Shown here: positions 1 through 32,001 of the stretch, piece by piece
Layout of the letters: the number at the start of each line of letters is the position of its first letter
Position numbering within the stretch: position 1 is the first letter of the stretch
NCBI GenBank assembly: GCA_025358765.1
Contig: JANYIG010000326.1
Coordinates: 1-33,144 of the forward strand
Length of the DNA stretch: 33,144 nt
Source: Candidatus Kapaibacterium sp.
Lineage (GTDB): Bacteria; Bacteroidota; Ignavibacteria; Kapaibacteriales; UBA4661
Reading direction: 5' to 3'
Translations under genes and position numbers: made by a program
The notes under the pieces: generated by a model
Database searches by the model: none
Seen by the model: the letters and a program-made list of their open reading frames with translations, nothing else
Told to the model about the DNA's origin: nothing

Positions 1-14
1 GTGAGGGGCTTAAC

Positions 15-197
15 TTAATGACATTGATGCTCAAAACCGCCATATAATTGCAACAGAAGTGAAAAAGCAGCAGCGCGTTCAATCTGTGTAAGCGAACCTT
101 CCTCAACCAAATCAGCAATCTCGCGTAGTGTCGTATCTACAATATCCAACGAGGCAAGTTCGACGGTGAGCTGTTCTCGTAAGTCGTTCAGTGTCAT
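15..197 (-). CDS. HepT-like HEPN protein, truncated (probable type VII toxin fragment)
   Basis: A 60-residue frame that starts inside the stop region of the nucleotidyltransferase gene (about 4 bp overlap, so the two are probably translationally coupled). Its residues look like the N-terminal half of HepT-like HEPN proteins: an amphipathic helix followed by IERAAAFSLLLQLYGGFEH, which resembles the ERAAL...FYNGIEN segment of that family. HepT proteins are usually 110-150 residues and carry a C-terminal RX4HXY RNase motif; this frame stops before any such motif. Reading on after the GAG codon (30-32) while skipping four bases (26-29) gives ENVIKL, close to the family's ENILK, and that frame stays open to the window edge. 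The copy may therefore be frameshifted, or simply short. The family call rests on remembered patterns and is moderate. Confidence 0.5.
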   Translation of the reverse strand: MTLNDLREQLTVELASLDIVDTTLREIADLVEEGSLTQIERAAAFSLLLQLYGGFEHQCH

Positions 198-30877: not shown

Positions 30878-30993
30878 CCCTCATCCCAACCTTCTCCCAG
30901 AGGGAGAAGGAGCTGGAGTCCGCTCCTCATCGTATCTTCCAAACCTCTCCCTTTGGGAGAGGTCGCGTCTCGTCTTCGAGGCGCGGGTGAGGG
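30878..30993. repeat. 116-bp multi-hairpin repeat element
   Basis: Outer inverted ends: ccctcatccc (30878-30887) against gggtgaggg (30985-30993), near-complementary. Inside: a perfect 9-bp stem with a 3-base loop (30890-30898 with 30902-30910); a short ggagc/gctcc stem (30909-30913 with 30922-30926) overlapping its foot; a second perfect 9-bp stem with a 3-base loop (30943-30951 with 30955-30963); and a third 9-pair stem with one G-T pair and a 4-base loop (30964-30972 with 30977-30985). Similar CCTCTCCC...GGGAGAGG repeats are widespread in bacteria. Confidence 0.78.
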
Positions 30994-31047
30994 TAGTTAA
31001 ACCAAGTTCTCAAACAACCTTGAAGCAAAAAAATCAAAAAAATACGA

Positions 31048-32001
31048 ATGGGATTACAGCAAAAAGTAGAGCGGTTGAAGGCATTAGGCTTGAAAAAAGC
31101 GCTTTCCATGAAATTCGAGAATTTTCAGTGGACAACGATGTTTTCCTTCTTCGAGCCACTTGGCTTGAGCGTGTTGCCCGCACATTTTTACAGCCCCGTC
31201 CCCGACACCCGCGCGCTGCGCCGCAACTTCAAGCGCTGGTACAGCCCGTCGGAACTGCCCGGCATCACCATCAGCGTGGAGGCGCAAGCGGAGTTTGCAA
31301 AGGAACTCGTGCAATTCCGCGAGGAATGCGCCGCGCTGCCCGAATACGATTGGGTGACGCAACAGGGTTTGGGCGAAGGTTATGCTTTAGTGGACGCGCA
31401 TTTGCTCTACGTGATGATGCGCTACCACAAGCCTGAACGTCTGACAGAGGTTGGCTCGGGGGTTTCGACGTACTTTGCACTCCGCGCTGCGGAAATGAAT
31501 GCGAAAGAAGGGCATCCATGCAGCGTGACGTGCATCGAGCCGTATCCGCGCAAGGGTTTGCTGAAGTTGGCAGAAAGCGGGCAGGTAAATTTGATTATGA
31601 AGCCCGTGCAGGACGTGAGTTTCGACGTATTTCAGCTCTTGGGCGAACGCGACATATTTTTTATTGACTCAAGCCACGTTTTGAAAATTGATAGCGATGT
31701 GTATTTCCTGTATTTAGAAGTACTGCCGCGCCTGAAAAGCGGCGTGGTGATTCACATTCACGACATTTTTTTTCCCTACCCAACGCCGGAGCCGGAAGTC
31801 TGGATTTTCCGGCAGCACCAATTTTGGAACGAAGCCCCGCTTGTGCAGGCACTTCTTATGAACAACCCGACATATCGGATTCTGCTTTGTGGAAGTTATT
31901 TGCATTGGAAAGCGCCGCAGGTGCTTCAATCCTTTATTTCCGCATATCATCCTGCGGAAAATTTTGCATCGTCGCTGTGGCTGCAGAAGATTTCAGAATA
32001 G
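31048..32001 (+). CDS. Class I SAM-dependent methyltransferase (Methyltransf_24-like)
   Basis: A 317-residue cytoplasmic protein. The SAM-binding motif I is EVGSGVSTYFALRAAEMN at about 134-151; a second nucleotide-binding strand is TCIEPYPRKG; DIFFIDSSHVLKIDSDVYFLYLEVLPRLKSGVVIHIHDIFFPYP carries the post-motif acidic and His residues seen in this group of small-molecule and glycan methyltransferases. The N-terminal 100 residues are an extra region typical of this type. Acceptor unknown; the setting among surface glycan genes suggests a sugar or polysaccharide substrate. The ATG at 31048 has no Shine-Dalgarno sequence, and the multi-hairpin element lies just upstream. It is convergent with the peptidase gene, separated by a repeat and a strong terminator. 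Confidence 0.85.
   Translation: MGLQQKVERLKALGLKKALSMKFENFQWTTMFSFFEPLGLSVLPAHFYSPVPDTRALRRNFKRWYSPSELPGITISVEAQAEFAKELVQFREECAALPEYDWVTQQGLGEGYALVDAHLLYVMMRYHKPERLTEVGSGVSTYFALRAAEMNAKEGHPCSVTCIEPYPRKGLLKLAESGQVNLIMKPVQDVSFDVFQLLGERDIFFIDSSHVLKIDSDVYFLYLEVLPRLKSGVVIHIHDIFFPYPTPEPEVWIFRQHQFWNEAPLVQALLMNNPTYRILLCGSYLHWKAPQVLQSFISAYHPAENFASSLWLQKISE

Follow-up and report, generated by a model that had tools for sequence, protein, structure and literature searches.

The element described here is a 116-bp sequence in a 33,144-nt stretch of a contig of Candidatus Kapaibacterium sp. (JANYIG010000326.1; this whole stretch is referred to as the window), where it precedes a methyltransferase gene (Table 1). 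Its other neighbour had been called a T9SS gene in the first-pass annotation, an assignment that is weakly backed by an FlgD_ig match above the cut-off, but the T9SS sorting domain scored 20.8 against a cut-off of 27.

Table 1. Positions of the element, its parts and other features in the window.
Feature	Position	Strand	Description
End of another repeat	1..26	-	Type A (IS982-like) TIR at 9-26, contig edge
Whole element	30878..30993	.	Probable inverted doublet of intrastrand-triplex units of the BoxC/TM type, with the tags facing outwards
Left unit	30878..30910	-	5'-CCTTCTCCC-TCT-GGGAGAAGG-TTG-GGATGAGGG-3'; 9/9 class II triads
Left-unit third strand (tag)	30878..30886	-	Left half of the near-complementary closing ends, CCCTCATCC; pairs with GGGTGAGGG (30985-30993) in eight pairs plus one T-G
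Hairpin 1	30890..30910	.	9 pairs, loop 3; stem 1, CCTTCTCCC/GGGAGAAGG, 30890-30898 with 30902-30910, loop AGA
Spacer between units	30911..30942	.	32 nt
Hairpin 2	30943..30963	+	Right-unit strands one and two; 9 pairs, loop 3; stem 2, ACCTCTCCC/GGGAGAGGT, 30943-30951 with 30955-30963, loop TTT
Hairpin 3	30964..30985	.	Stem-loop within the second loop of the right unit; stem 3, CGCGTCTCG/CGAGGCGCG, 30964-30972 with 30977-30985, loop TCTT; eight Watson-Crick pairs plus one G-T
Right-unit third strand (tag)	30985..30993	+	GGGTGAGGG; base 30985 common to stem 3 and the right closing end
Methyltransferase gene (Methyltransf_24)	31048..32001	+	54 bases from element to start codon

All three stems of 9 pairs, their loops of 3-4 bases and the near-complementary closing ends lie as the first-pass annotation had described them, and stems 1 and 2 are indeed variants of one theme, namely near-copies of one palindrome. 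For this reason, the local hairpins compete with a long arm. Of the cloverleaf-like layout that had been proposed, the stems and closing ends are present, but the predicted minimum-energy fold has one long arm in which stems 1 and 2 are paired together, plus stem 3 and the closing ends; the folding tools used favour this arm and cannot compute triplexes. The claim that such an arrangement is very unlikely by chance was borne out in comparison with 200 dinucleotide shuffles, none of which was as low as the element either as RNA (151 nt; -70.3 vs. -46.1 for shuffled sequences, z = -5.86) or as DNA (116 nt; -34.6 vs. -17.2, z = -7.26).

Dispersal of the repeat and its kinship with BoxC

The suggestion of a repeat element proved correct. 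With the 116 bp as BLAST query, 41 similar places were found in the organism's own genome, mostly matching the left 35 bp. In the recurring half-unit, the tag CCCTCAYCC is separated by a few bases from a hairpin with the core CYTCTCCC-NNN-GGGAGARG. A looser form of this pattern occurs 51 times in the own genome and 178 times in a genome of the neighbouring genus (G002), and it is present in 18 of the 99 genomes of the order, the reversed-pattern control yielding 0. Such genome-wide counts derive from BLAST and from pattern searching, together with 594 kb of sampled sequence partly enriched for copy-bearing contigs. Further copies and compensatory changes were both found, and two of the three refuting signs named in the first-pass annotation, a lack of copies and a lack of compensatory changes, therefore do not apply. 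Among the matches listed, the strict half-unit pattern was found in Pseudomonas, Enterobacterales, Variovorax, Chloroflexota, Verrucomicrobiota, Planctomycetes, Acidobacteria, Cyanobacteria and others, and an inverted partner tag lay within 400 bp in 40 of the 101 half-unit matches read in other taxa. A plasmid search with the element as query gave no match. According to crude ORF calls, most copies are intergenic, with flanking genes in mixed orientations, and a few apparently fall within open frames. One copy (contig C47, L260:150-260) is traversed by an open reading frame. Furthermore, seven half-units are clustered over 3 kb of genome G012 (L194:5399-8479), within and near a large methylase-like reading frame; translation of the repeat there yields peptides such as PSPTGRGAGGEG and SLTLTLSQSERE.

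Judged by its sequence, the half-unit read from the other strand is the intrastrand triplex motif known as TM_ECO or BoxC, also called PIT (Holder et al., 2015; PMC4666352). In E. coli, this motif consists of a C-rich stem, a G-rich stem and a second G-rich stem, occurs in inverted pairs and adopts a purine-motif triplex according to CD and NMR; such triplexes were reported not to form in RNA, and no association with transposons, phages or plasmids was found in that organism (PMC4666352). Exact matches to the published TM_ECO pattern number seven in the own genome and 11 in G002, and 5,395 of 5,426 E. coli genomes contain matches to a 33-nt unit taken from the own genome (median, 15 places). 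Neither unit of the window copy matches the literal pattern (CCCTCNCCC-N3-6-GGGNGAGGG-N3-GGGNGAGGG, one mismatch allowed): the left unit departs from it by three coordinated substitutions, and in the right unit the second loop is 21 nt long and one triad is broken. On this sequence comparison we class the window copy as a TM_ECO variant, not as TM_ECO itself, though seven sister copies match. The repeat shares with BoxC/TM_ECO the order of the three strands, a near-identical sequence, the inverted pairs, the mostly intergenic location and the large number of copies. It differs in the coordinated T-A.A triad of the left unit of the window copy, in the hairpin within the second loop of the right unit, and in that sister copies are enclosed by TIR-bounded elements, whereas no transposon link was reported for E. 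coli (PMC4666352).

Two short inverted palindromic units with outward tags and a variable spacer are also a feature of REPINs, which are inverted doublets of REP units moved by a RAYT (Y1 tyrosine transposase), and REP dimers nested in palindromes have been described in other genomes (PMC3733652). However, the tags of the window element are CCCTCATCC/GGGTGAGGG and not GTAG or CGTC, and the pattern involves three strands rather than two. Moreover, the Y1 transposase (PF01797) has no match in the own genome, although the search evidently works because 61 of the 99 genomes of the order possess this enzyme; the copy-richest neighbour G002 has two weak matches only. Nor was any gene for a Y1 transposase seen between CCCTCACCC-type units. 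A REPIN is thus a distinctly improbable identity for the element, and a RAYT-driven one was rejected for want of a Y1 transposase in the genome.

Fit of the units to a three-strand fold

Class II (purine-motif) intrastrand triplex motifs were defined as three consecutive stems of 6-15 nt separated by loops of 1-6 nt, with G.G-C, A.A-T or T.A-T as allowed triads. The left unit, read on the minus strand, conforms to this definition in all of its nine triads (of the kinds C-G.G, T-A.A and T-A.T), with loops of 3 and 3 nt. At position 3 it has T-A.A where the published consensus has C-G.G; as all three strands are altered together at this position, the nine triads are all still allowed. Within the window, the left unit is the sole perfect short-loop motif with a stem of at least 7, and none was found in ten shuffled versions of this stretch. 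In the 594-kb sample, 11 perfect short-loop motifs were found, as well as 18 having second loops of up to 36 nt, compared with none in four shuffles.

The right unit (ACCTCTCCC-TTT-GGGAGAGGT, then a 21-nt second loop with hairpin 3, then GGGTGAGGG) allows eight of nine triads, one being broken, and its second loop is above the class II limit. Its sequence indicates the same type of motif as the left unit, with stem 3 inserted in the second loop. Neither of these two three-strand motifs had been noticed in the first-pass annotation. The architecture shared by the two units is more in keeping with an intrastrand purine triplex, a DNA structure, than with a cloverleaf RNA.

Two kinds of covariation bear on the fold. 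Firstly, among units whose hairpin carries A rather than G at position 3, 10 of 13 have A or T in the third strand, compared with 11 of 71 among the other units (p = 2e-5 for distinct units from all sources, shared descent being ignored); we regard this as moderate evidence, at the level of sequence, for a link between the three strands. Secondly, hairpin 3 is a compensatory variant of a hairpin found at the same place in about 140 copies of the neighbouring genus; a search with the long-second-loop pattern recovered 141 copies from G002 and a few more from other members of the family. Of the 120 outer pairs in 24 distinct sequences, which represent 10 different stems, 119 are kept, while shuffling gave a mean of 82 and a maximum of 105. 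The compensatory signal for hairpin 3 is stronger than that for the third strand.

The element in the methyltransferase leader

Compensatory changes in hairpin 3 would also be expected of a structured small RNA or a cis-acting, whalefall-1-like leader RNA whose fold acts on the methyltransferase transcript. Such a function could further draw on the very stable RNA fold, the 54 bases that separate the element from the start codon, and the best Rfam match, whalefall-1, which extends over hairpins 2 and 3 and the tag with a score of 29.5 bits (E = 9e-6). This score, however, is below the gathering cut-off of 37, so that membership of the family is not supported, and the model has comparable sub-threshold matches at other places, which in part are further copies of the repeat. 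By the crude ORF calls, orientation relative to genes is mixed, and copies sometimes lie within open frames, neither of which fits a leader RNA. The methyltransferase orthologues of the neighbouring genus have no such element upstream; a synteny comparison revealed a different upstream gene there, and therefore no empty site can be read. Finally, the surroundings of the window copy yielded neither promoter-like nor terminator-like sites. The structured small RNA or RNA-processing signal considered in the first-pass annotation thus found no support, and we consider a small RNA or a leader RNA unlikely. Another Rfam match, to PreQ1 at 30997-31043, scored 20.6 against a cut-off of 39 bits and was discarded as not credible.

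The whalefall-1 family (RF01762) deserves a remark of its own. It was put forward as a non-coding RNA restricted to whale-fall metagenomes (PMC2864571) and is listed as a certain non-coding RNA, with sub-threshold matches on copies of the repeat described here. Its order of parts, a hairpin, a second hairpin and then GGGUGAGG, is that of the right unit, and by inspection six of seven positions of its consensus would fit the triad rule; the window copy differs in scoring under the family cut-off. The weak Rfam match and the shared order of parts suggest, as a lead, that whalefall-1 could itself be a DNA repeat of this kind.

Strong GC hairpins in an intergenic position could also represent a domesticated transcription terminator or insulator, and similar repeat hairpins have been proposed as terminators in Pseudomonas (PMC2718517). 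Yet a T-run is absent after every stem, and a search for intrinsic terminators (a GC stem followed by a T-run) yielded 0 sites at the element. The neighbouring genes are codirectional, and only 3 of the 24 intergenic copies for which both neighbours were called lie between convergent genes according to the crude ORF calls. A terminator or insulator role is accordingly very improbable.

As regards function, the element is most simply read as a selfish or neutral repeat, and this is also most likely. In the methyltransferase leader, it would be at most a stable RNA hairpin with a possible effect there.

Transposon context of the sister copies

Sister copies in this lineage lie in elements with differing terminal inverted repeats, often small TIR-bounded transposons. 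The type A TIR (CAATGNCATTAAGTTAAG, 18 bp) has 39 ends in the genome. Exact target duplications of 11-12 bp flank 11 of 15 type A elements, and those of three more are off by 1-2 bases. With one mismatch, the same TIR adjoins an IS982-family transposase gene in the own genome (NF033520, 246 bits). Type A sister copies thus combine the features of MITEs, namely TIRs, target duplications and a matching transposase in the genome. Duplications of 11 bp look long for IS982. At one locus (L239:45-1036), an IS982-family transposase gene is followed by a type A repeat. The type C TIR (TTGAAGTTTAGATAAA) is present in two genera; here, 14 of 24 elements have exact duplications of 5-9 bp, and 15 of 24 enclose a BoxC-type pair. 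Types B, D, E and F, which are represented in smaller numbers, gave no clear duplications by the exact test.

The 18-bp TIRs, 11-bp duplications and the TIR matching an IS982-family element end liken the type A sisters to IS982-driven MITEs. The window copy differs in this respect: at its borders neither a recognisable TIR nor a target duplication was found, only the closing 9-bp ends pair, and it cannot be classed as a MITE. The mobility of the window copy itself is therefore something we infer.

Dispersal, sequence kinship with BoxC, the three-strand fit, the compensatory changes and the sisters in TIR-bounded elements all support the reading of the element as a copy of a dispersed non-coding DNA repeat made of two inverted BoxC/TM_ECO-type triplex units, with a hairpin inserted in the second loop of the right unit, and we consider this identity probable. 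Exposure of one strand in the course of replication or transposition might allow the purine-rich third strand to fold back on its own hairpin. IS transposases that work in trans on the enclosing TIRs could have spread the sister copies; for family A these would be of the IS982 type. The window copy would then be a solo or decayed one whose ends of this kind were lost or never present.

Two other triplex sequences were found within the same transposon ends as the BoxC-type units. A type A element without the BoxC-type core (L235:206-430) contains the perfect seven-triad motif CCCCCTT/AAGGGGG/GGGGGAT twice, one of the two units having a 17-nt second loop, and type C elements without this core carry motifs of the CTCCCCT class with a long, hairpin-like second loop. 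These other sequences and the motif counts in the 594-kb sample are the grounds for a more speculative reading, in which the fold rather than the sequence is conserved. Several unrelated TIR families would then carry central triplex motifs of differing sequence (CCCTCTCCC, CTCCCCT and CCCCCTT, often with a loop-2 hairpin) but the same three-strand geometry, and the fold itself would be under selection, for example in presenting or protecting single-stranded transposon DNA. We put this forward tentatively and think it rather doubtful.

BoxC-type triplex repeats are widespread in bacteria, and the one dedicated study saw no link to mobile elements in E. coli. Units inside TIR-bounded elements with target duplications offer a testable route for their spread. 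Likewise, the three-strand compensation and the sequence-unrelated triplex motifs in the same ends provide natural variants for testing the importance of the triplex fold.

In three type C elements that lack the BoxC-type core (L228, L230 and L234), the CTCCCCT-class motif is a single hairpin flanked by two third strands, an arrangement also seen in type F elements (L255-L257). At the far end of the window, the assembly probably broke inside another repeat copy (positions 1-26), because a type A TIR is located at the very edge of the contig.
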